Of a DNA stretch of 57,328 nt, positions 45,648 through 57,166 are shown piece after piece. This stretch comes from Salinisphaera hydrothermalis C41B8. GTDB taxonomy: Bacteria > Pseudomonadota > Gammaproteobacteria > Nevskiales > Salinisphaeraceae. The position numbers and the translations under genes are program-made. The notes below the pieces were generated by a model. That model had not been told where the DNA came from, made no database searches, and worked only from the letters and a program-made list of their open reading frames with translations. Position 1 is the first letter of the stretch, and each line of letters begins with the position of its first letter. The stretch is taken from positions 1 through 57,328 of the forward strand of contig NZ_APNK01000025.1 of assembly GCF_000732535.1 (NCBI RefSeq). Direction: 5' to 3'.

Positions 45648-46664
45648 TCAGGGCCGATCTCGTAGCACTCGGTCGCCGGTGCGAGCCACGTGATTCGGCT
45701 GACGCTGTACATTCTCGGTGGCCTGGGCCAGGTTGAGCACTGTCTGGGCGATCGATTGCGTGGTGGCCAGCGTATCGATCGCGCCGGTGCGCAGGGCGCC
45801 GAGGATGCCGGTGACCTTGGTCGGCTCGCTGGCGGTGGCGATGACGTCGGGGATATGACGCAGGTGATCGATGGTCAGCCCGATCACTCGGCCGAGCAAC
45901 TGGGTTTCGGCGAGGTTGCCGTCGATATCGATGAAATCGTAGCCCATGATGTCGCCGACCACCCCGAGCTGGCGTAACGCGGTGATTTCGTCGTTGGTGA
46001 ACCAGCCCATGCGCACCATGTTGCTGTCTTCGAGAATATCGCCGACGCCCACCACGGCCACGTCGGCGTGCTGGGCCTTGGCCAGCGACTGGCGCACGGT
46101 ATCGTTGGCGAGCAGGGCATCGCGGATATGCGTGTCGGAGACGATGGCCGGCGCATAGAGCGTCACGCTTTCGCCGCCGAAGCGCATGGCCATCTGGCGA
46201 CAGATCTGGTCGGCGTTCATGGTCTCGCCGCCGCGATACGAGCCGCCGATGGCGCAGACGAAGCTGCAATGCCGGCGTTGATTGGACACCACATGCTCGG
46301 GCACCGCGCTCACGTTACGACCCATGCCGACCGCGACCACGCTGGTGTCGGTCAGCGTCTGGTCTAGATAGCGGGCCACCAGGCCAGCGAGCAACTCGCG
46401 CTGTCGTTCCGGGTCCTTGTGATCCACAGAGATGATCGCGCGCCGGATGCCGAAGCGTTCGATCAACGCTTTTTCCAGCGCGGCCGTGGTGTTCGGCGGG
46501 TGCTGGAGCCGGACACGGATCTCGACGATGCCATCGGCGACTGCGCGCTTGAGCAGCCGCCCGACTTTAACGCGCGAGACTTCGAAACGGCTGGCCAGCT
46601 CTTCCTGGGTCCAACCGTCGATGTGATAGAGCTTGGCCAGCTCGGTCAGTTCATCAGGTGACAT
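45648..46664 (-). CDS. SorC/EryD-family transcriptional regulator
   Basis: A 338-aa sugar-responsive regulator. The N-terminal helix-turn-helix is WTQEELASRFEVSRVKVGRLL (split around 18-38), and the C-terminal sugar-phosphate-binding domain contains GMGRNVSAV, DVAVVGVGD and GYDFIDIDG. The family includes EryD, the repressor of erythritol genes. It is divergent from the tetritol operon and is the obvious local regulator, probably binding the AATGAAC/GTTCATT sites in the 445-base gap. Confidence 0.9.
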   Translation of the reverse strand: MSPDELTELAKLYHIDGWTQEELASRFEVSRVKVGRLLKRAVADGIVEIRVRLQHPPNTTAALEKALIERFGIRRAIISVDHKDPERQRELLAGLVARYLDQTLTDTSVVAVGMGRNVSAVPEHVVSNQRRHCSFVCAIGGSYRGGETMNADQICRQMAMRFGGESVTLYAPAIVSDTHIRDALLANDTVRQSLAKAQHADVAVVGVGDILEDSNMVRMGWFTNDEITALRQLGVVGDIMGYDFIDIDGNLAETQLLGRVIGLTIDHLRHIPDVIATASEPTKVTGILGALRTGAIDTLATTQSIAQTVLNLAQATENVQRQPNHVARTGDRVLRDRP

Positions 46665-46732
46665 AGATTTTGTCTTTCACCCCTCGTGCCTCGGCTGAAC
46701 GCCTGAACAGTCTGCCCCGACGCTGGTGCGAT

Positions 46733-46757
46733 CATATGTTCGATTAATGTTCATATG
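46733..46757. promoter_or_regulatory. Operator candidate near the SorC-type regulator gene
   Basis: CATATGTTCGATTAATGTTCATATG-type dyad: CATATG occurs at both ends (46733-46738, 46752-46757) with two TGTTC units inside. It lies about 70 bases upstream of the regulator start and may serve autoregulation. Confidence 0.45.
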
Positions 46758-46944
46758 CACTAGACCTTTATCCTACGGCCTCATCCCGGTCTGTCCAGTA
46801 CCATGCTCGGCTATCAGCGCGCAATATTTCAGTATTCGCAGGAATTTGAGACCTAAGTCGTATCGACCAAAGTCTAGGTATGGAAAAGAGGGTTTCGCGT
46901 TGACCGCCCTCGGAGCGCGAAATAATATCGATCACGAATAAACA

Positions 46945-46974
46945 AATGAACCGTGAATGATCAGATGTTCATTC
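46945..46974. promoter_or_regulatory. Operator candidate upstream of the tetritol operon
   Basis: AATGAAC (46945-46951) and GTTCATT (46967-46973) are a perfect 7-bp inverted pair, with a nested GAATGA / TCATTC pair (46955-46960, 46969-46974). The GTTCAT core is shared with the dyad at 46733, suggesting one regulator binds both. Confidence 0.5.
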
Positions 46975-47109
46975 GCGACTGGCCGGAACTGAAACGCTTG
47001 ATACGAGCGTGGTCGGCGGCATCGGGCATACGAACCGCCCGGTGCGGAGGACGAGGACCGGCCATGGCGTGCCCCGCGGCGCGAAAGTCACATTGAGGAG
47101 TCAGCCGTC

Positions 47110-48237
47110 ATGTCTGATGTTACCGATCGTCCCGAAACCGCCGCCCAGCTGGGCGATATCCCCAAAACCATGCAGGCCGTCGTCTGCTACGCGCCGGGCG
47201 ACTATCGACTCGAGGAAGTGGAAGTGCCCACGCCGGGCCCGGGCGAGATCCTGTGCCGGGTGGAAATGGTCGGCATCTGTATGTCGGACGTGAAGGTCTA
47301 CCACGGCGCGCCGTCCTTCTGGGGCGACGACACCCAGCCGCGCTACGTCAAGCCGCCGATGATCCCGGGCCACGAGTTCGTCTGCCACGTAGTCGCCCTC
47401 GGTGAGGGCGCCGGTGAGGCCAAGAACGTCAAGATCGGCGATCGCGTGATCTCCGAGCAGATCGTGCCGTGCTGGGATTGCCGCTACTGCAACCGCGGCC
47501 AGTACTGGATGTGCGAAAAGCACGACCTGTACGGTTTCCAGAGCAACGTGAACGGCGCGTTCGCGCAGTACATGATCTTCACCAAGGAAGGCATCGTGCA
47601 TCACGTGCCCGATCATGTGCCGGCCGAGGAAGCCGTGCTGGTCGAGCCGCTGGCCTGCTCGCTGCACGCCGCCGACCGCGCTCAGGTCACGCCCGATGAT
47701 GTGGTCGTCGTCGCCGGCGCCGGCACGCTGGGGCTGGGCATCATCGGCCAGGTTGCGCTGTCCAACCCGAAAAAATTGATCGTGCTGGATCTCAAGCCCG
47801 AGCGGGCCAAGTTCGCCAAGCAGCTGGGCGCGCACGAAGTCTGGAACCCGGCCGAGGAAGACGTGATCGAGAAGATCAAGTCGATCACCGACGGCTATGG
47901 TTGCGATATCTACATCGAGGCCACCGGTTACCACAAGGCGGTGAATCAGGGCATTCACATGCTGCGCAAGCTGGGCCGCTTCGTGGAGTTCTCGGTGTTC
48001 GGTTCCGAGGTCACGCTCGACTGGTCGATCATCAGCGACCGCAAGGAACTGGATGTTCTGGGGTCGCATCTCGGTCCCTATACCTATCCGCGCGCGATCG
48101 ATTTCGTCGCCACTCGCAAGCTCGACATGCGGGGCGTGGTCACCCACACCTACCCGATGTCGAAATTCCACGAGGCGCTCGAGGTCATGGAGCGCGGCGA
48201 GAATTCGATGAAGGTTGCGCTCGACCCGCACAGCTGA
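47110..48237 (+). CDS. Zinc-dependent polyol dehydrogenase (erythritol/L-threitol dehydrogenase-like)
   Basis: Medium-chain dehydrogenase of 375 aa. GHEF near residue 98 and an early Cys in VGICMSDVK (about 54-62) give the catalytic zinc site, PCWDCRYCNRGQYWMC (about 120-135) holds the four structural-zinc Cys, and GAGTLGLG near 204 starts the NAD fold. With a C4-type downstream pathway the expected reaction is erythritol or L-threitol to L-erythrulose, as for EltD in Mycobacterium smegmatis. The substrate call is inferred from context; L-iditol-type activity is the alternative. Confidence 0.87.
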   Translation: MSDVTDRPETAAQLGDIPKTMQAVVCYAPGDYRLEEVEVPTPGPGEILCRVEMVGICMSDVKVYHGAPSFWGDDTQPRYVKPPMIPGHEFVCHVVALGEGAGEAKNVKIGDRVISEQIVPCWDCRYCNRGQYWMCEKHDLYGFQSNVNGAFAQYMIFTKEGIVHHVPDHVPAEEAVLVEPLACSLHAADRAQVTPDDVVVVAGAGTLGLGIIGQVALSNPKKLIVLDLKPERAKFAKQLGAHEVWNPAEEDVIEKIKSITDGYGCDIYIEATGYHKAVNQGIHMLRKLGRFVEFSVFGSEVTLDWSIISDRKELDVLGSHLGPYTYPRAIDFVATRKLDMRGVVTHTYPMSKFHEALEVMERGENSMKVALDPHS

Positions 48238-48331
48238 TCAGGACAGGCCGTCGCGCTGCCGGTGCATGGGTGGCGTGACGGTGACCGACCATTCGCAAGG
48301 CCGTGCGGCCGCCCGGCACAAGAGCGCAGAA

Positions 48332-48363
48332 GCGCCGGCCTGGCGGGACGCGCGGGCCGGCGC
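48332..48363 (+). promoter_or_regulatory. Stem-loop between dehydrogenase and small ORF
   Basis: Perfect 9-bp stem GCGCCGGCC / GGCCGGCGC around a 14-base loop, without a T tract, ending about 20 bases before the ribosome site of the 29-aa ORF. It could affect RNA decay or the translation start of the downstream genes. Confidence 0.4.
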
Positions 48364-48396
48364 TCGATTCTCGGATCGGTTGCCCGGGAGGATGCC

Positions 48397-48486
48397 ATGA
48401 CTAGCCAAACCATCGTGCCGCGCGAGATCTCGCACGGCTTCACCCACGAAGCAGACAACGCCCTCGCGGCGGGGAGTTCCGCATGA
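48397..48486 (+). CDS. 29-aa ORF overlapping the DUF2291 gene
   Basis: A short reading frame with GGGAGG 5-6 bases before its ATG and a stop overlapping the DUF2291 start (ATGA). The peptide begins MTSQTIVPREISHGFTH, is polar, and lacks a signal or membrane segment. It may be a leader that delivers ribosomes to the DUF2291 gene, which has no strong site of its own, or a real small protein. No homology recognised. Confidence 0.45.
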   Translation: MTSQTIVPREISHGFTHEADNALAAGSSA

Positions 48487-49148
48487 CCGCGGCCACCAGT
48501 TCGAATCGCCCGGGCGCCAGCAAGATGTCGCCGATGGTCAAGCGCGGGATCGGTGCTGCCGTCGTCGTCGCGCTGCTTATCGCCATGGGTCTGGATACGA
48601 CAGTCGTGCCGATCGGCTCCGACATCGGCGCCTCTGCGGACCAGTTCTCGCCGGAGAAATACGGCAAGTCCGAGTTCCCCAAGGTGCAGCAGAAGATCGA
48701 GCAGCGCGCGGCGCCAGCGCCGGTGCTGGTCAAGGCGCTCAAGGACAACAAGGACACCGCGGTCAAGAAATACGGCGTGCCCAACGACATCGGGCCGATC
48801 CTGTCGGTGAAGTTCACCGGCACCGTGGGTGACGGCCAGGACGGGATCTATAACGTGAAGGTGCCGGGCGTGCCCGACGATCTGACGATCCGCGTGCAGA
48901 CCGGTCCGGCCGTGATGGGCACCGTCCTGCGCGATGGCGCCGGCGATATCAGCTTCGGCGATTTCACCAACCAGATTCAGTATCAGAACGCCGGCGCGGC
49001 CATCAATAACGAGATGAAAAAGGAAGTGCTCTCCGGCCTCAAACGCGACGCGCTGAAGGGCAAGAAAGTCACCGTTGTCGGCGCCTTCCAGTTGATCAAC
49101 CCGAGCAACTGGCTGGTGACCCCCGTACGTTTCAGTGTGCAGCAATGA
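48483..49148 (+). CDS. DUF2291 family membrane-anchored periplasmic protein
   Basis: A 221-aa protein with one N-terminal membrane anchor (about 20-37) and a periplasmic domain. Family-typical segments are QTGPAVMGTVLRDGAGDISFGDFTNQI, spanning about residues 139-165, and NPSNWLVTPVRFSV at the end. DUF2291 genes recur inside ribose-type ABC loci for polyols and C4/C5 sugars, always beside the ATPase gene, so it is probably an accessory of the transporter or its binding protein. Function unproven. It overlaps the ATPase start (ATGA). Confidence 0.8.
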   Translation: MTAATSSNRPGASKMSPMVKRGIGAAVVVALLIAMGLDTTVVPIGSDIGASADQFSPEKYGKSEFPKVQQKIEQRAAPAPVLVKALKDNKDTAVKKYGVPNDIGPILSVKFTGTVGDGQDGIYNVKVPGVPDDLTIRVQTGPAVMGTVLRDGAGDISFGDFTNQIQYQNAGAAINNEMKKEVLSGLKRDALKGKKVTVVGAFQLINPSNWLVTPVRFSVQQ

Positions 49149-50683
49149 GTGATACCCAGCGGACATCCGGAGGCGATGCGCCGGTGCTCTCCGCGCGCAA
49201 CGTGGTCAAGCACTACGGCGGCGTGCAGGCGCTCAAGGGTGTGGACTTCGATATCTATCGCGGCACCGTGACCACGCTGTTCGGGGAGAACGGCGCGGGC
49301 AAGTCCACGTTGATGAAGATCCTGTCCGGCGTCGAGCAGCCGACCGACGGCCAGCTCATTCTCGATGGTGAGCCGGTGCGCTTCGCCTCGACCGTTGAGG
49401 CTCAGCACCGCGGAATCTCGATCATCCACCAGGAGCTGTCGCTGGCGCCGAATATGTCGGTACGCGACAACATTTTCATGGGCCGCGAGCTGCGACGCGC
49501 CGGTGGAGTGGATTATGCCGAAGAGGCCCGTCAGGCCGCCGCGCTGATGACGGAACTCGAGGAAGATATCCACCCGTTGACCAAGGTCGGCGATCTGCGC
49601 GTCGGTCAGCAGCAGATCGTGGAAATCGCGCGTGCGCTGTCGGTGGACGCCCGCATTCTGATCATGGACGAGCCGACCTCGGCGCTGTCTGCCACCGAGG
49701 TGGAAGTGCTGTTCAAGGTGATTCGCGATCTCACCGCGCGCGGCGTGGCAATCGTGTATATCTCACACCATCTCGAGGAGGCGCTGGAGATCACCGACCA
49801 CGCCGTGGTGCTGCGCGACGGCAGCATGACGGCCAAGGCCGAGCGCGCGGATATCGATCTGGCGTGGATCGTGCGCAACATGGTCGGCGAGAACTTCGAT
49901 CTGGGCTCGCCGCCGACCGGCTATGAGTTCGGCGATACGCTGTTGTCGGTGCAGTCGCTGACCGTGCCGGACGATTCCAACGTCGACCGGGCCGCCGTGG
50001 ATCATCTGTCGCTGGATGTGCGCGCCGGTGAAGTCGTGTGTATCTACGGCCTGATGGGCGCCGGGCGCACCGAACTGCTGGAAGCCCTGGCCGGGGCCTC
50101 GCAGGTCAGCGATGGCAAGGTGATGCTGGAAGGCCGCGACGTGACCCATATGGATATCGCGCAGCGTATTGCCGCCGGTTTGGTGCTCGTGCCGGAGGAT
50201 CGGCAGCGTGACGGTCTGGTCCAGACCATGACTGTGGGCCGCAATCTCTCGCTGGCGAGCATCGGCGCCTTCGTCAAGAACCTGTTTCTTTCCAATTCCG
50301 GCGAGCGCGGCCTGGTCGACGATTCGATCCGCGACGTGCACGTCAAGACCGACGGGCCGGGCGCGATGATTGGGTCGCTGTCCGGCGGCAACCAGCAGAA
50401 GGTCGTCATCGGCAAGATGGTGACCACCGATCCGAAGGTGATCCTGCTCGACGAACCCAGCCGCGGCATCGACATCGGCGCCAAGGCCGAAGTGTTCAAG
50501 CTGCTCGCCGAGCGGGCGAAGCAGGGGCTGGGCGTCGTCTACTCGACCTCCGAGGTCAACGAGTGTCTGTCGATCGCCCACCGCATCATCGTCATGGGCC
50601 GTGGCCGCATCGTCGCCGAATTCGGGCCCGATGTCTCCAAGGAACAGATCATGGCCGCCTCGGGCGAGTCCGTGGCCGCGTAA
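49145..50683 (+). CDS. Sugar ABC transporter ATP-binding protein, double domain (RbsA-like)
   Basis: A 512-aa fused double ATPase of the ribose/galactose class. The first half has Walker A GENGAGKST near 46 and Walker B ILIMDEPTSAL near 170. The second half lacks an ordinary Walker A, reading GLMGAGRTEL, as usual for RbsA, but keeps signature LSGGNQQKV near 412 and ILLDEPSRGID near 436. Energises the following permease; expected cargo is a C4 polyol. Confidence 0.92.
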   Translation: MSDTQRTSGGDAPVLSARNVVKHYGGVQALKGVDFDIYRGTVTTLFGENGAGKSTLMKILSGVEQPTDGQLILDGEPVRFASTVEAQHRGISIIHQELSLAPNMSVRDNIFMGRELRRAGGVDYAEEARQAAALMTELEEDIHPLTKVGDLRVGQQQIVEIARALSVDARILIMDEPTSALSATEVEVLFKVIRDLTARGVAIVYISHHLEEALEITDHAVVLRDGSMTAKAERADIDLAWIVRNMVGENFDLGSPPTGYEFGDTLLSVQSLTVPDDSNVDRAAVDHLSLDVRAGEVVCIYGLMGAGRTELLEALAGASQVSDGKVMLEGRDVTHMDIAQRIAAGLVLVPEDRQRDGLVQTMTVGRNLSLASIGAFVKNLFLSNSGERGLVDDSIRDVHVKTDGPGAMIGSLSGGNQQKVVIGKMVTTDPKVILLDEPSRGIDIGAKAEVFKLLAERAKQGLGVVYSTSEVNECLSIAHRIIVMGRGRIVAEFGPDVSKEQIMAASGESVAA

Positions 50684-50707
50684 GCCTTACGACCAGGAAT
50701 TACAAAC

Positions 50708-51865
50708 ATGAGCGATACACGCGCTGCAACCAACACGAAGGGCAAGAGCGGGCTGTTTGCCAACGGTTTCGACCCGGTCGGCCTGCTGCTTGAAGGACGG
50801 GCGTTCTTCGGCCTGATCGCGATCATCGTGGTCTTTTCCTATCTGTCGCCGAATTACTTCACGTTCGACAACCTGCTGACCATGTCCTCGCATGTGGCCA
50901 TTTACGGCCTGCTCGGTCTGGGCATGCTGTTGGTGATTTTGAACGGCGGCATCGATCTGTCGGTGGGCTCCACGCTGGGACTTTGCGGGGTCATGGCCGG
51001 CTTTTTCATCCACGGCGTAGAACTCGCGCCGCTTGGTGTGACGCTGTATCCGCCGATCTGGGTGGTCGCCGTGCTGGTCTGCGGCGTTGGCGCGTTCGTC
51101 GGGTTGGTTAACGGTATCCTGATTGCCCGCTTCAAGGTGCCGCCGTTCGTGGCCACCCTGGGCTCGCTGTACGCCGTGCGCGGTATCGCGCTGCTGATCA
51201 CCGGCGGCCTGACCTACAACAACCTGGGCGGTAAGGAAGCGCTGGGCAACACCGGCTTCGACTGGCTGGGCTTCAATCGGCTGTTCGACATTCCGATCGG
51301 CGTGCTGGTGATGATTGTGGTCGCGCTCATTCTGAGCGTGGTGCTCAACAAGACCGCGTTCGGCCGCTGGTTGTATGCCTCGGGCGGCAACGAGCGCGCT
51401 GCGCGTCTGTCGGGCGTACCGGTCAAGCGGGTCAAGATTTCGGTGTATGTGCTGTCGGGCATCTGTGCCGCCATCGCCGGTCTGGTGCTGACCTCCGAGC
51501 TGACCTCGGCCGGGCCGACCGCGGGTACCACCTATGAACTGACCGCTATCGCCACGGTGGTGATTGGCGGGGCGGCGCTGACCGGCGGTATCGGTAACGT
51601 GCGCGGCACCTTGCTGGGCGCATTCGTGATCGGCTTTCTGTCCGATGGCCTGGTCATCGTGGGTGTGTCGGCCTATTGGCAAATGGTGTTCACCGGCGCC
51701 GTGATCGTGCTCGCTGTCCTGCTGAACTCGATCGAATACAGCGGCCGTGCCAAGAAGAAGAGCTCGAACGACGGCGGTGCCACGCCGTCGCCGCAGAAAA
51801 CCGAATCCGCCGGAACCGCCGCATCGGGCGGCGCCCGACAGGTTCCACAAAAGACCGCCGGCTGA
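50708..51865 (+). CDS. Sugar ABC transporter permease (RbsC-like)
   Basis: A 385-aa inner-membrane permease with about eight to ten helices. Landmarks are GLLGLGMLLVILNGGIDLSVGS split near 72-93, the G-rich loop ANGGN-type ASGGNERAARLSGV near 226-239, and GGAALTGGIGNVRGTLLGA near 287. The C-terminal tail (from about 350) is hydrophilic and low-complexity, which is longer than in E. coli RbsC. Confidence 0.92.
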   Translation: MSDTRAATNTKGKSGLFANGFDPVGLLLEGRAFFGLIAIIVVFSYLSPNYFTFDNLLTMSSHVAIYGLLGLGMLLVILNGGIDLSVGSTLGLCGVMAGFFIHGVELAPLGVTLYPPIWVVAVLVCGVGAFVGLVNGILIARFKVPPFVATLGSLYAVRGIALLITGGLTYNNLGGKEALGNTGFDWLGFNRLFDIPIGVLVMIVVALILSVVLNKTAFGRWLYASGGNERAARLSGVPVKRVKISVYVLSGICAAIAGLVLTSELTSAGPTAGTTYELTAIATVVIGGAALTGGIGNVRGTLLGAFVIGFLSDGLVIVGVSAYWQMVFTGAVIVLAVLLNSIEYSGRAKKKSSNDGGATPSPQKTESAGTAASGGARQVPQKTAG

Positions 51866-51901
51866 CCGGGGGATGCAACCAAAGAGAAGGAGATGCAAGC
51901 A

Positions 51902-52885
51902 ATGCTACGCAGAACAATAATCCTGGCCGGTGCCGCCATGGTCGCCGCCGCGGCCTTCACCGGCCTGTCCACGGCGTCCGCGGCCGATTCCGGCAACGGT
52001 AAGCTGATCAGTATTATCGTCAACGATCCGTCGAATCCGTACTGGCGCACCGAGGGCCAGGTGGCGGCCACGGAAGCCCGCTCGCTGGGCTACAAGGCCA
52101 ACGTGTCGGCGCATAAGGGTGATACCAACACCGAGCGCAACCTGATCGACACCGCCATCACCAACCACTCGGCGGCGATCATCCTGGACCCGGCCAACGC
52201 CGACGGTTCCATCGGTTCGGTAAAGAAGGCCGTACAGGCCGGTATCCCGGTGTTCCTGGTCAACGCCGAGATCAACCAGAAGGGTCTGGCCAAGGCGCAG
52301 CTGGTGTCCAACAACGCGCAGGGCGCGGCGCTGGGTGCGCAGCAGTTCGTCAAAGCCATTGGCGGCAAGGGCAAGTACGTCGAGCTCAAGGGCGCGCCGT
52401 CGGATAACAACGCGGCCACGCGTTCCAACGGTTATCGCACTGTGCTGTCGCAGTACCCGGACCTGAAACGGGTCGCCCATCAGGTTGCCAACTGGGACCG
52501 CACCCAGGGCCACGACAAGATGCAGGGCATGCTGCAGGCGCACCCGAACATCAACGGTGTGCTCAGCGGTAACGACGAAATGGCCCTCGGCGCCATTGCC
52601 GCGCTCAAGGAAGCCGGCAAGCTCAAGGGCGTGACGGTTGGCGGTTTCGACGGTTCCCCGGACGCCGTGGATGCGGTCAAGTCGGGTGAGCTGGCCTACA
52701 CCGTGCTGCAGCCGGTTGCCGTGTTCGCGAAGAAGGCGGTCGACGAAGCCGACCACTACATCAAGCATGGCAACACCGGTGTTGATCACGAGAAGCAGCT
52801 GTTCGACTGCGTCCTGATCACCAAGAAGAACGCCGACGACTTCGTCGCCCCGTTCACCCTGAAGAGCATGACCAGCAGCTCGTAA
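51902..52885 (+). CDS. Sugar ABC transporter substrate-binding protein (RbsB-like)
   Basis: Periplasmic-binding-protein-like domain 4 (ribose type), 327 aa. The signal peptide ends near residue 26 (ASA-A). The domain begins KLISIIVNDPSNPYW and contains AIILDPANADG near 91 and VLSGNDEMALGAIAAL near 217. ATG 51902 is preferred because AAGGAG (51887-51892) touches the alternative ATG 51893 and can only serve 51902. Expected ligand is erythritol or threitol by context. Confidence 0.9.
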   Translation: MLRRTIILAGAAMVAAAAFTGLSTASAADSGNGKLISIIVNDPSNPYWRTEGQVAATEARSLGYKANVSAHKGDTNTERNLIDTAITNHSAAIILDPANADGSIGSVKKAVQAGIPVFLVNAEINQKGLAKAQLVSNNAQGAALGAQQFVKAIGGKGKYVELKGAPSDNNAATRSNGYRTVLSQYPDLKRVAHQVANWDRTQGHDKMQGMLQAHPNINGVLSGNDEMALGAIAALKEAGKLKGVTVGGFDGSPDAVDAVKSGELAYTVLQPVAVFAKKAVDEADHYIKHGNTGVDHEKQLFDCVLITKKNADDFVAPFTLKSMTSSS

Positions 52886-52913
52886 ACCCGCTACGGCATC
52901 AAGCCGACGAGTG

Positions 52914-52942
52914 CGCGCGGGCCGTGGTGGCCCGCGCGTTTT
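52914..52942 (+). terminator. Terminator-like attenuator between binding protein and kinase genes
   Basis: Perfect 10-bp stem CGCGCGGGCC / GGCCCGCGCG with a 5-base loop followed by TTTTGTT. It lies 28 bases after the binding-protein stop and directly before the kinase ribosome site GAGGAG. A partial terminator here would lower the enzyme genes relative to the transport genes. Confidence 0.75.
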
Positions 52943-52957
52943 GTTGAGGAGTTCCCC

Positions 52958-54691
52958 ATGACGTACCTAGTGAATAATCCCGCCGATTTCGTCGATGAGA
53001 GCATCGACGGTTTCGTTGCCGCCAACAGCAATCTGGTGCGCCGCGTGCCCGGCGGCGTGGTGCGTGCCACTCGAACCCCGCCTGGACAGGTTGCCGTGGT
53101 CATCGGCGGCGGTTCCGGTCACTATCCGGCGTTTGCCGGGCTGGTTGGCCAGGGCCTGGCCCACGGGGCGGCCATGGGCAACGTCTTCGCTTCGCCGTCG
53201 GCACAACAGATTTATTCCGTGGCCAAGGCCGCGGCTTCCGATTCGGGTGTGCTGCTGTCGTTCGGCAACTATGCCGGCGACGTGCTCAACTTCGGCATCG
53301 CCGAGGAACGCCTGAAAGCGGAAGGGATTCCCTGTCGCTGTTTTGCTGTCACCGACGACATCTGCAGCGGCCCCGCCGACAAGGCCAGCGAGCGTCGCGG
53401 CATTGCCGGTGATCTGACCGTGTTCCGTGCGGCTGCGCTGGCTGCGGCCGAGGGCAAGTCGCTGGACGAGGTGTATGAATTCGCAAGCCACGCCAACGAT
53501 CGTACGCGCTCGTTCGGCGTGGCCTTTTCCGGCTGCACGCTGCCCGGCGCCAGCCAGCCGTTGTTCACCGTGCCCAAGGGCCGCATGGGCGTGGGCATGG
53601 GTATCCACGGCGAGCAGGGTATCGAGGAAGTCGATATGCCGAGCGCGTCGGATCTGGCCGACATGCTGGTCGATCGCCTGCTCGATGAACGTCCGGACGG
53701 CGCGGCGTCGCCGCGCGTGGGCGTGATGCTCAACGGCCTGGGCTCGGTCAAGTACGAAGAACTGTTCGTACTCTACAAGCGCGTCTCCGAGCGGCTGGAA
53801 GCCGCGGGCCTGACGTTGGTGCAACCCGAAGTGGGCGAACTGGTCACCAGTTTCGAGATGGCCGGCGTATCGCTGACCCTGTTCTGGCTCGACGACGCGC
53901 TGGAGCAAGCCTGGACCGCGCCTGCTACCACGCCGGCGTATTGTCGCGGCGGTGTGGCGCTGGAAGGCGAGCCGCGCGATGACGCCGATCTGGCCGCAGC
54001 GCACGAAGAAGAAACGCCGGACGCGAGCGAGGACTCCAAGTCCGATGCCGCCGGCATGCTGGCCGTGATCGAGACCATTCAGGCCAAGATCGAGGCCGAG
54101 GCCGAGGATCTCGGCAAGCTCGACGCCATCTCGGGCGACGGCGACCACGGCATCGGCATGGACACCGGCGCCCGTGCGGCGCTGTCCGCCGCCCGGCGGG
54201 CGGTTGAAAAAGGCTGTGGTGCCGGCACTGTCCTGATGCGGGCCGGCGATGCCTGGGCCAACGAGGCTGGCGGCACGTCGGGCGCCCTGTGGGGCCTCGG
54301 CCTGCGCAGTGTCGGCGCCTGCATCGGCGACGAGAACAGCGTGGCCGCTCCGGTCGTGGCCGAGGGCGTGGTTGAAGCGACCGACGCCATTATGCGCCTG
54401 GGCGGCGCCGAGATCGGCGACAAGACCATGCTCGACTCGATGAAGCCGTTCTCGGACAAGCTGGCCGAAGAAGTGAAGGCCGGTACGCCTTTGCGCCAGG
54501 CCTGGCGCCGCGCGGCGGAAGCCTCGCAGCAGGCCGCCGACGCGACCGCAAACCTGGCCCCGAAGAAGGGCCGGGCCAAGAACCACAGCGACAAGAGCAT
54601 AGGCCACGCCGATCCGGGCGCCATTTCGTTCGCCATGATCGTTTCGGCGGTCGCTGACACACTCGAATCCCTGCATGAGGACGCAGCATGA
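52958..54691 (+). CDS. DhaK-DhaL fused kinase (probable L-erythrulose kinase)
   Basis: ATP-dependent ketose kinase of 577 aa. The N-terminal DhaK domain holds [12 protein letters not shown] (50-61) and the substrate-binding His217 in [11 protein letters not shown]. An acidic linker (about 347-365, [11 protein letters not shown]) leads to the DhaL ATP domain with [14 protein letters not shown] near 389 binding Mg-ATP, and DPGAISFAM near the end. Dihydroxyacetone kinase is the parent activity; with the two isomerases after it, L-erythrulose 1-phosphorylation (LerK type) is the better prediction. Confidence 0.88.
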
Positions 54692-55170
54692 GCGACAAAC
54701 TTCGAATCATCCTCGGGTCCGACGAAGCGGGCTACGAGTACAAGGAAGCCCTCAAGGCCGATATGCAAGCCAGCGACTATGTGTCGTCGGTCGAGGACAT
54801 GGGCGTGGACGAGGCGGCGAAGACGCCGTACCCGACGGTCGCCATCGCGGCCGCTCAGAAGATTGCGGCCGGTGAAGCCGATCGGGCGTTGCTGATCTGC
54901 GGTACCGGGCTGGGCGTGGCGATTTCGGCCAACAAGGTGCCCGGCATTCGTGCCGTGACCGCGCACGACGGCTACTCGGTCGAGCGCAGTATCCTGTCCA
55001 ACAATGCCCAAGTGCTGTGCTTCGGCCAGCGCGTGATTGGTCTGGAGCTGGCGCGCAAACTGGCCCGCGAGTGGCTGACCTATCGTTTCGACGAAAACTC
55101 CTCGTCGGCCAAGAAAGTGGCCGTCATCAAGCAGTACGAGGAAACGGGCGACCACAGCCCCGTGGAGTGA
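54688..55170 (+). CDS. RpiB/LacAB family isomerase (probable D-erythrulose-4-P isomerase)
   Basis: A 160-aa sugar-phosphate isomerase. The catalytic Cys is in [14 protein letters not shown] (about 70-83), the ring-opening His in [11 protein letters not shown] (about 91-101), and [10 protein letters not shown] is at the N-terminus, where RpiB has GSDHAG; the His is replaced by Glu. ATG overlaps the kinase stop. In known tetritol pathways this class (DerI, EryI) turns D-erythrulose-4-P into D-erythrose-4-P. Confidence 0.88.
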
Positions 55171-55211
55171 CGCCATAATAGACGCCGATTGATTCAGCGT
55201 TGGATTCTTCC

Positions 55212-55961
55212 ATGCATATCGGCGTCAGTTTCAAGATGTATCTCGACCGGCCGCGTACCCGCCAGTGGTGCGCGGCGGCCGCCGAGATCGCTCGTCGGCA
55301 TCGCGCGGTGGCGTCTGGCGCCGTCGAACTCTCCGTTTTTCCCACCCTGCCGGCCATGGAACTGGCCATGGCGGCCTGTGCCGATAGCCCGATCCGCTTC
55401 GGCGCCCAGGATTTGTTCTGGCATGACCGCGGCGCTTATACCGGCGCGGTCTCCGGCGCCGATCTGGCGGAGATGGGCTGTTTCTATGCCGAGATTGGTC
55501 ACGCCGAACGTCGTCGAGTGTTCGGCGACGATGACACCATCGTGGCTCGAAAAGTGGCCGCAGCCGTGCGCAACGGTCTTACCCCCTGGTTATGCATCGG
55601 CGAACCCGAAGAGGGCCCGGTAGACGCCGCCACGGCGTTCTGCCTGGAACAGCTCATGGCGTCTCTGGCCGAGTTGTACGAGCCGGTTCCGCTGGTCATT
55701 GCCTACGAGCCGGTCTGGGCGATCGGGCAATCCGATGCCGCGAGCGCCGCGCATGTCGCCGAGGTGGCCGAAGGCCTCAAGACCGGTCTTGCCGAGCGCA
55801 CCGGCCAGCGTGATGTGCCCGTGGTTTATGGCGGCAGTGCCGCGCCGGGAACGCTTAGCGAGCTCGGCCACGGCATCGACGGCCTGTTCCTGGGCCGCTT
55901 CGCGCACGACACGACGGCCTTCGAGGCCATTCTCGATGAGGCTGCCGAGCTGGCGAACTAG
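55212..55961 (+). CDS. Triose-phosphate-isomerase-like protein (probable L-erythrulose-1-P isomerase)
   Basis: TIM-barrel protein of 249 aa from ATG 55212. The catalytic His is in IGHAERR and the Glu in AYEPVWAIG; the Lys is in VSFKMYL near residue 8, but the Asn two residues before it in true TIM (NWK) is replaced. GGSAAPGT gives the phosphate loop. It resembles the LerI/EryH branch acting on L-erythrulose-1-P rather than the glycolytic TpiA. A TTG at 55200 in frame is a less likely start. Last gene of the island. Confidence 0.87.
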   Translation: MHIGVSFKMYLDRPRTRQWCAAAAEIARRHRAVASGAVELSVFPTLPAMELAMAACADSPIRFGAQDLFWHDRGAYTGAVSGADLAEMGCFYAEIGHAERRRVFGDDDTIVARKVAAAVRNGLTPWLCIGEPEEGPVDAATAFCLEQLMASLAELYEPVPLVIAYEPVWAIGQSDAASAAHVAEVAEGLKTGLAERTGQRDVPVVYGGSAAPGTLSELGHGIDGLFLGRFAHDTTAFEAILDEAAELAN

Positions 55962-56019: not shown

Positions 56020-56282
56020 GTTCCCTGCCCGAGAGGCATTCGCCGGCCGATCGAGCCGGCTCAATCGCGATTCGTCCAAAATAAGAATGACCCGGCGTTT
56101 TCTTCTTCTGCGCGCGGCGCGGCCATCGATTGCTCGCGCCTGTATAAGGTCCGATGTCATCGGCGTCGGTCTGCAGACGATCGGTCTTAAGAGTCTACCT
56201 GATTATGGATGAAGCTCAGCGGGGTCATGACCTGACCCACCGACGGCGGATAATCGAGCCATGACGCTAACGGAGATTTGTC

Positions 56283-57083
56283 ATGGCGATCAATCAGGTC
56301 CAGATGCGACCCGGCCTGTCGCTGGTTGACTTCATGCAGCAGTATGGTACCGAAGCACAATGCGCACAGGCATTGGCCGCAGGGCTTTGTCTACGCAGCG
56401 TGCCTCTGCCGGTTGCACACGACGTTTGAACGCGCGGGCCGCGGTTATTGGCCGTGTCGACGTTGTCGACACCAGACCACGGTCACCGCCGGCACACTCT
56501 TCGATTCGAGGAAACTCCACCTGACGACCTGGTTTCTGGCCATGCATTTGTTGCCGCAAGCCAAGAACAACGTCTCCGCCCTGGCACTGCGGCGCCAGCT
56601 CGGGGTCAACTGACGCATGGCCTGGCGCATCAGACACAAGCTCATGACCGTCATGGCTGAACGCAAGCCGCATCAGACCGTGATCCGCTGTATGCCCTTC
56701 ACATCAAAGGCGGTGGCCGGCTGGCCAACGACGCCTTAACAGCAGACACCGACGCCGTATCGGACGGGCTGCCGGTGTTTTGGCTATTGCGCGCGGAAGC
56801 CGCAAATCACCTCGGGATTGTCACCGGCTCGGGCCGGGCGTCGGCCGAGCATCCCGAATTCCGGTGGGCCAATATCATGCTGGGTAATCTGAAGACCGCC
56901 ATCCATGGCACCTATCACGCCTTCAAGTTCGCCAAGTACGCACCGCGTTACCTGGCCGAGTTTCAGTACCGCTTCAACCGGCGTTATAACCTGCGTTCCA
57001 TACTGCCGCGGCTGCGGCGCGCCGCCGCGACCACCGCGCTGCGGCCCGAGTATCGACTGATGCGGGCTGAGCTTTGTACATAA
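56283..57083 (+). pseudogene. Decayed IS1595-type transposase
   Basis: The first part reads MAINQVQMRPGLSLVDFMQQ and YGTEAQCAQALAA in one frame, then shifts near 56370 into WPQGFV, RHQTTVTAGTLF, LTTWFLAMHLLPQAKNNVSA, which ends at a stop at 56611. Traces (RMAWRIRHKLMTVMAER) continue after the stop, then the middle, including most of the DDE core, is missing. The C-terminus resumes in a third frame (AEHPEFRWANIMLGNLK, YLAEFQYRFNRRYNL) to 57083. The protein type is IS1595 with an N-terminal zinc ribbon that has lost Cys. Ends of the IS were not identified. Confidence 0.85.
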
Positions 57084-57166
57084 TCAAGAAGCATGATGGC
57101 CGTGCTCCACGTCTAAGCAGCCGCGCCAGCAATCTCGATAGGTGATTTGACATGTAATGAATCCTT

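Follow-up and report, generated by a model that had tools for sequence, protein, structure and literature searches.

Which compound is taken up and degraded through the genes at positions 45648-55961 of contig NZ_APNK01000025.1 of Salinisphaera hydrothermalis C41B8? The window, that is, the whole stretch of 57,328 nucleotides that was analysed, is the entire contig 25 of this 4.28 Mb genome. A preliminary description had read the region as a tightly coupled run of genes for tetritol uptake and catabolism, leading from erythritol or L-threitol to D-erythrose-4-phosphate. Our sequence comparisons support this reading, and the importer favours erythritol. We consider it probable that this island serves the uptake and catabolism of erythritol and combines two known modules. 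The arrangement looks like a hybrid, in which an importer of the rhizobial Ery kind would serve dehydrogenase-first enzymes of the mycobacterial and yeast kind. The modules themselves are known, and what is new is their combination.

Gene organization

Nine intact, full-length open reading frames span the region, one regulator gene pointing leftward and eight genes pointing rightward. Gene content and order were as follows (strand in parentheses).

45648..46664 (-), SorC-type (Sugar-bind) transcriptional regulator, divergent; PF04198, 241 bits
46865..46972 (+), conserved control region, a putative promoter/operator read by eye from an alignment of six Salinisphaera intergenic regions
47110..48237 (+), predicted EltD-like, zinc-dependent medium-chain polyol dehydrogenase; ADH_N, ADH_zinc_N; in a clade with mycobacterial-type operon dehydrogenases
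48483..49148 (+), DUF2291 protein, leading gene of the eryEFG unit; PF10054, 150 bits; N-terminal helix and OB-fold-like domain predicted
49145..50683 (+), EryE-type ATPase (CUT2) of an ATP-binding cassette (ABC) importer; 76% identical to EryE of Rhizobium johnstonii 3841
50708..51865 (+), EryF-type permease; 73% identical to EryF of 3841
51893..52885 (+), EryG-type periplasmic binding protein; 78% identical over 286 residues to EryG of 3841
52958..54691 (+), kinase with fused DhaK and DhaL domains, putatively acting on erythrulose; PRK14479, 733.7 bits (cut-off 492); placed by tree (see below)
54688..55170 (+), RpiB-type isomerase, predicted from its clade to be a D-erythrulose-4-phosphate isomerase; TIGR02133, 199.4 bits (cut-off 168.2)
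55200..55961 (+), TIM-type isomerase, predicted L-erythrulose-1-phosphate isomerase; PF00121; on the 11ef/3s6d side of its tree

Two starts are possible for the DUF2291 gene, 48483 and an ATG within it at 48525, and two for the TIM-type gene, the TTG at 55200 and an ATG 12 bases downstream. The tight coupling was borne out: from the dehydrogenase to the last gene the intergenic gaps are 245, -4, 24, 27, 72, -4 and 29 bases, and the Pfam and NCBIfam assignments agree with the families first proposed (Sugar-bind, ADH_N/ADH_zinc_N, DUF2291, ABC_tran in two stretches, BPD_transp_2, Peripla_BP_4, Dak1 with Dak2, LacAB_rpiB and TIM). Base composition gave no signal of recent transfer, the G+C content of the island (61.6-65.6%) lying within the range of the window (58.4-70.5%).

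An EryEFG-type importer

The importer had at first been called RbsACB-like; it is indeed an ABC importer, but its identity with EryEFG, and the DUF2291 gene as its regular companion, had been missed. Relatives of the binding protein (E <= 1e-40) were found on 264 plasmid records, 139 from Rhizobium and 76 from Sinorhizobium, with 124 at 60-80% identity. In R. ruizarguesonis TA1 and R. johnstonii 3841, the latter equated with the R. leguminosarum 3841 of published work from its strain number and plasmid name, the match stands by genes for an FGGY kinase, a glycerol-3-phosphate-type dehydrogenase and a TIM barrel protein; these loci also carry genes for a SorC regulator, a DeoR regulator, a triosephosphate-isomerase-type protein and an RpiB, which is the layout of the known erythritol locus. 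Relative to pRL12 of 3841, identities were 51.6% over 184 residues for DUF2291, 76.0% for EryE, 72.7% for EryF and 78.0% over 286 residues for EryG, an alignment that excludes the first 37 and last 7 residues. The order DUF2291-EryE-EryF-EryG is the same in both, and in 3841 the unit adjoins eryABCD. The EryG value is above the 73% cut-off given for EryG in a survey of erythritol loci (PMC3599248). An eryF mutant of 3841 was reported to lack erythritol uptake (PMC2364660), and eryEFG to be needed for growth on erythritol (PMC3599248). Because the importer is 73-78% identical to EryEFG of 3841 and has the same leading gene, it points to erythritol in particular. By sequence it is a rhizobial-type EryEFG erythritol importer with a DUF2291 leading gene, and erythritol uptake is its predicted function.

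The remainder of the rhizobial locus of 3841 (eryABCD, eryEFG and eryR-tpiB-rpiB; also found in Brucella) resembles the island in encoding a regulator of the SorC type and two isomerases, one TIM-type and one RpiB-type, although these share 35 and 54% identity with their island counterparts. Unlike the island, which has none of the three, it encodes EryA, EryB and EryC, and in the island oxidation would precede phosphorylation. No erythritol kinase EryA was found in the island, and the best match in the genome is 30% identical, versus a published cut-off of 46% (PMC3599248); the open frame at this match scores as a xylulokinase. The eryA-based survey described 19 proteobacterial erythritol loci, with Escherichia fergusonii as the one gammaproteobacterium that it names (PMC3599248). 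Such a survey would miss the Salinisphaera island.

The binding pocket was compared with those of solved proteins. A residue pair is Asp-Arg in 5ibq, 4ry0, 2fn8 and 2ioy, and Asn-Ala in the binding protein of the window; in RbsB this pair presumably contacts the sugar. Each of the 14 EryG-like rows, of which 13 are distinct and all share at least 51% identity with the window protein, has Asn-Ala, as do EryG of 3841 and the Mycobacterium smegmatis proteins 4rsm (MSMEG_3599), 5hko (MSMEG_3598) and 4rs3. We take the structures of MSMEG_3598 and MSMEG_3599 to have been solved with xylitol and D-threitol. The other eight of the 22 scored rows carried Asp-Arg (two, one of them 5ibq), Asp-Ser (two), Asp-Thr, Asn-Ser, Asn-Thr or Asn-Ala (one each, the last from the mycobacterial-type locus L210); the sample of solved proteins is small, and the EryG-like proteins of L026 and L076, which run off the locus sequence retrieved, were left unscored.

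Catabolic enzymes and predicted pathway

In the proposed route, EryEFG and its DUF2291 partner would import erythritol, and perhaps L-threitol too; the EltD-like dehydrogenase would oxidise erythritol to erythrulose, the DhaK-DhaL kinase would phosphorylate erythrulose, and isomerisation of the product would deliver D-erythrose-4-phosphate. Each of these reactions and substrates is predicted from the comparisons described here. EltD and LerK have been reported to convert erythritol to D-erythrulose-4-phosphate and L-threitol to L-erythrulose-1-phosphate, and an Escherichia coli strain carrying the four enzymes grew on erythritol and L-threitol (PMC10733421). The yeast erythritol route is described as using the same four enzyme kinds (PMC9835291, PMC5992420), in Yarrowia with the same order of steps as proposed here (PMC9835291). 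The Yarrowia lipolytica cluster (EYD1, EYK1, EYL2, EYL1) thus shares four steps, enzyme kinds and clustering with the island (PMC9835291, PMC5992420), although it is eukaryotic and is likened to it by the described steps and not by sequence.

The closest bacterial parallel in dehydrogenase-first logic and in the four enzyme kinds is the EltD-LerK-LerI-DerI route of M. smegmatis. It was represented by stand-ins from seven Mycobacterium-type loci (L196, L199, L201, L203, L205, L206 and L210), which encode a regulator, a dehydrogenase, two ATPases, a kinase and an RpiB in a row; their label rests on the size of the genus (more than 396 species), the operon layout and a binding protein that closely resembles 4rsm. 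In L210, Pfam places a CUT1 importer in between, a layout that matches what we take to be the eltD-to-derI order of M. smegmatis; next comes a CUT2 importer whose binding protein closely resembles MSMEG_3599. Identities to the seven loci were 52-54% for the dehydrogenase, 68-71% for RpiB and 51-52% for the kinase. Unlike the island, these loci have a different importer (in L210, CUT1 plus CUT2), L210 has no DUF2291 match, and their kinase and TIM-type protein fall in other clades.

The trees of the TIM-type protein, the kinase and the RpiB-type protein, and a first tree of the dehydrogenase, were quick searches on chosen subsets of loci with Shimodaira-Hasegawa-like approximate likelihood ratio support alone; long branches meet in the quick dehydrogenase tree and the kinase tree. 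A more careful method was used for the dehydrogenase (leaving out seven rows of the quick tree, including two of its three PDB rows) and for the traB-like protein discussed below. Support values that reach the star level are so marked. Calling of open frames, including the layout of L210 and of the non-carrier sites below, was crude and serves for orientation only.

The dehydrogenase fell into a 21-row clade with the enzymes of mycobacterial-type operons and of Salinicola, apart from threonine dehydrogenase (Tdh), with support of 100 (star) in the quick tree and 99/97 (star) in the careful one; it passes no NCBIfam cut-off. The RpiB-type protein passes TIGR02133, as does the mycobacterial-type operon enzyme, and two subfamily models, but scores 149.6 bits against the rhizobial DerI model NF051858, below the cut-off of 240 (the 3841 protein scores 257.7). 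It belongs to a 43-row clade (99, star) with the mycobacterial-type operon RpiB and PDB entry 3qd5, apart from ordinary RpiB, and is 67.6% identical to 3qd5 versus 42% to 5ifz and 39% to 3ph3. As 3qd5, like 3s6d, is a Coccidioides protein, this closeness perhaps reflects transfer between bacteria and fungi. The loci of Salinicola and Enterobacterales in this tree have a different type of RpiB.

The TIM tree separates 16 triosephosphate isomerases from 43 rows from kinase loci together with 11ef and 3s6d (98, star). The first of these structures is titled L-erythrulose-1-phosphate isomerase and is 83% identical to rhizobial TpiB. The loop-8 string of the island protein, FLGRFAHD, is common to 3s6d; GR occurs in all 27 of the 43 kinase-locus rows in which this loop is readable, versus GGA in all 15 readable triosephosphate isomerase rows of 16. 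Another triosephosphate isomerase, encoded on contig 19, scores 303 bits on the TIM model versus 182 for the island protein, and another DhaK-DhaL protein, encoded on a further contig, is 34% identical to the island kinase. Of the 14 Salinisphaera genomes, 13 encode such a separate DhaK-DhaL protein (34-37% identical), whether or not they carry the island. By these comparisons, the island kinase and TIM-type protein are not the general ones of the genome. A TIM-type gene accompanies the kinase at 66 of the best 80 of 578 kinase loci, which argues that a 1-phosphate is formed; going by the products reported for EltD and LerK, this step may be more important when L-threitol or L-erythrulose is the substrate.

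Several observations weaken or weigh against the proposed erythritol reading. The comparison enzymes are stand-ins, and no tree contains the true M. smegmatis EltD, LerK, LerI or DerI. The kinase forms its own 46-row clade (99, star) outside both mycobacterial-type kinase groups, sister to them and not nested, and kinase cousins at 52-54% identity stand in an unrelated PdxA/tripartite-transporter setting in rhizobia; kinase specificity is therefore not fixed by family. The TIM-type protein sits closer to 3s6d than to 11ef, and its subclade includes neither 11ef nor the mycobacterial-type proteins (34-35% identical). Four actinobacterial loci with the same importer and kinase carry another zinc dehydrogenase, 26-28% identical to that of the window (L014, 4433-5521; L016, 4412-5509; L062, 4455-5495; L085, 3263-4315), which perhaps serves another tetritol. 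The regulator is 28% identical to rhizobial EryD, and the nearest solved binding protein by sequence, 5ibq/4ry0 (284-285 bits), is RHE_PF00037, deposited as a ribose transporter protein. The preliminary assignment of the enzymes to the M. smegmatis set therefore holds in part: with the stand-ins, the dehydrogenase and RpiB-type protein group as expected and the TIM-type protein lies off the triosephosphate isomerases, but the kinase and TIM-type protein are sister to, not nested among, the mycobacterial-type enzymes. Near neighbours in Actinomycetota are L016 and L062 for the kinase (support 89, below star level) and L016 for the TIM-type protein (88, below star level), a hint of an actinobacterial origin of both Salinisphaera proteins.

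The kinase family also occurs in other surroundings. In Pararhizobium (L006, 6783-13719; L005, 6666-13719) a 52% identical kinase is encoded with PdxA, a tripartite tricarboxylate transporter and a sugar-phosphate isomerase, and the same PdxA-type layout, with a 54% identical kinase, was read from unannotated frames of Sinorhizobium meliloti pSymB; these loci appear to represent a different pathway for the family. Five Nitrosomonas records (L032, L050, L052, L060 and L067) hold a 52-54% identical kinase with no RpiB or TIM partner in the flanks examined.

Alternative substrates

Instead, the island might serve a different C4 compound, be it L-threitol, D-threitol or free L-erythrulose, or act on polyols more broadly, with erythritol as a minor substrate; we regard this as unlikely. 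It would suit the Asn-Ala pair shared with MSMEG_3598 and MSMEG_3599 and their presumed xylitol and D-threitol ligands. EltD, moreover, is described as an erythritol/L-threitol dehydrogenase, and since L-threitol yields L-erythrulose-1-phosphate, the TIM-type step would be needed more there (PMC10733421). Against this stands the importer, which at 73-78% identity is an EryEFG, reported as an erythritol system.

We give much less credence to a sugar system, for ribose, apiose or a similar compound, in which a dihydroxyacetone-type kinase would act beside RpiB and TIM proteins working as pentose-5-phosphate and triose-phosphate isomerases. The deposited name of RHE_PF00037 and the name of TIGR02133, ribose-5-phosphate isomerase, would agree with it, and the predicted structure of the binding protein is also closest to RHE_PF00037. 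However, identity to that protein is 52% in the Foldseek alignment, much lower than the 78% to EryG of 3841; the Asp-Arg pair is replaced by Asn-Ala, the TIM protein falls outside the clade of triosephosphate isomerases, and the nine genes include none for a pentulose kinase. An apiose or ribose reading drawn from the 5ibq/4ry0 match was dropped once EryG had been found at 78%. Least credible of all is a dihydroxyacetone or glycerol system: the Dak1-Dak2 domains of the kinase are what such a system would have, but the genome, like nearly all those of the genus examined, encodes its separate DhaK-DhaL protein elsewhere, and we know of no part played by RpiB or EryEFG in dihydroxyacetone use.

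Distribution in Salinisphaera and beyond

The island kinase was found in six of 14 Salinisphaera genomes (72-100% identity), and all six carry the nine genes in the same order. In the five further carriers the binding protein is 76-85%, the kinase 72-92% and the RpiB 87-94% identical to those of the window, and this colinearity makes the grouping more than chance. In five of the six carriers regB-regA-traB-like genes precede the island; the sixth, G012, has it at a different place and its traB-like gene on a separate contig. At six non-carrier sites (the eight non-carriers minus G006 and G007), the traB-like gene is followed within at most 0.9 kb by a D3-like gene (41-53% identical) and then D8 (80-85%), D3 and D8 being two genes beyond the island in G009. 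The traB-like gene was not found in G007; in the tree of the other 13 of the 14 genomes a single branch separates carriers from non-carriers (99/98, star), so that one gain or one loss suffices.

In a kinase scan of named genomes, from which the best 80 of 578 relatives were taken as loci (some ending at contig ends), the best named match among those listed was S. japonica YTM-1 (contig NZ_AYKG01000007.1, 72%). Besides the TIM-type gene, an RpiB-type gene was present at 67 of the 80 loci. An EryEFG-type importer (ATPase 61-80% identical) was present at nine (L008, L014, L016, L026, L030, L048, L062, L076 and L085), five of which, L008 and four from Salinicola, have a dehydrogenase at least 58% identical. 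The four Salinicola loci (L026, L030, L048, L076) share with the island the importer, DUF2291, the dehydrogenase (59-61%), the kinase, the TIM-type isomerase and the regulator, but unlike the island they have genes on both strands and an RpiB of another type (46-49% identical); in L030 a transketolase gene adjoins the isomerase. The preliminary description had called such a set uncommon in a gammaproteobacterium, and so it proved: the kinase (E <= 1e-120) occurs in four of 369 sampled gammaproteobacterial genomes, namely that of the window, S. japonica and two of one other family. It is not unique, since related loci among the matches listed come from Salinicola, Halotalea, Pseudomonas viridiflava, Pantoea and Serratia. 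In the literature searched, which covered few subscription journals, no report of the Salinisphaera island or of such a hybrid locus was seen, and no paper naming DUF2291.

If the proposed reading is right, erythritol use would be assembled from swappable modules, one importer serving both kinase-first (rhizobial) and dehydrogenase-first (actinobacterial and Salinisphaera) routes, and a halophile would gain the predicted use of a fungal and algal osmolyte. The island would also supply divergent isomerases for synthetic C4 pathways and offer a clean case for finding the function of DUF2291.

DUF2291

DUF2291 was at first considered peculiar to the Salinisphaera island, an idea that was dropped because the family is found before RbsA-type ATPases across the phylum sample: 14 of 249 sampled genomes hold 15 copies, and in all 15 cases the gene next downstream encodes an RbsA-type ATPase. 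Thermotoga maritima and Bacillus subtilis matched in a control for the family; the copy in L239 was placed by its Pfam match, tblastn with the window protein having missed it. The predicted model (mean predicted local distance difference test score 83) matches the solved OB-fold protein TM0957 of T. maritima (2f4i, E 2.1e-10), and its N-terminal helix is probably a membrane anchor. Since the gene constantly stands beside that of the ATPase, a role in transport is likely. A bolder and doubtful extension, which we put forward tentatively, is that DUF2291 is a fixed, membrane-anchored periplasmic OB-fold subunit in a subfamily of CUT2 importers that aids the ATPase and permease or ligand hand-over, and that the change from Asp-Arg to Asn-Ala in EryG-type proteins marks polyol rather than sugar ligands. 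In that case the Salinisphaera hybrid would be an erythritol locus of a third kind, assembled separately.

Regulator and control region

The regulator is 56-60% identical to those adjoining related kinases in Salinicola and Halotalea. Between it and the dehydrogenase lie 445 bases, which include a AAAGTCTA-containing block (46865-46878), its AAAGTCTA core kept in all six aligned Salinisphaera genomes; a sigma70-like TTGACC-17-TAATAT (46900-46928), conserved throughout the six at its TTGA[CT] and TA..AT positions; and an imperfect inverted repeat (46940-46972), found in similar form in five of the six. The putative operator was read by eye. The divergent SorC-type protein would sense the substrate or a phosphorylated intermediate and act on this shared control region.

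Flanking features

Just 3' of the island, at 56195-57091, lies an insertion sequence (IS)-like element whose inverted ends are 26 bases long and 81% complementary. Of its two open-frame pieces, the second matches the IS1595 transposase domain. A second polyol-type cluster lies on the same contig at 4251-14037. It encodes a xylulokinase (TIGR01312, 556 bits), a transaldolase/FSA-type protein, a PfkB kinase, a CUT1-type binding protein and permease, and a mannitol/arabinitol-type dehydrogenase.

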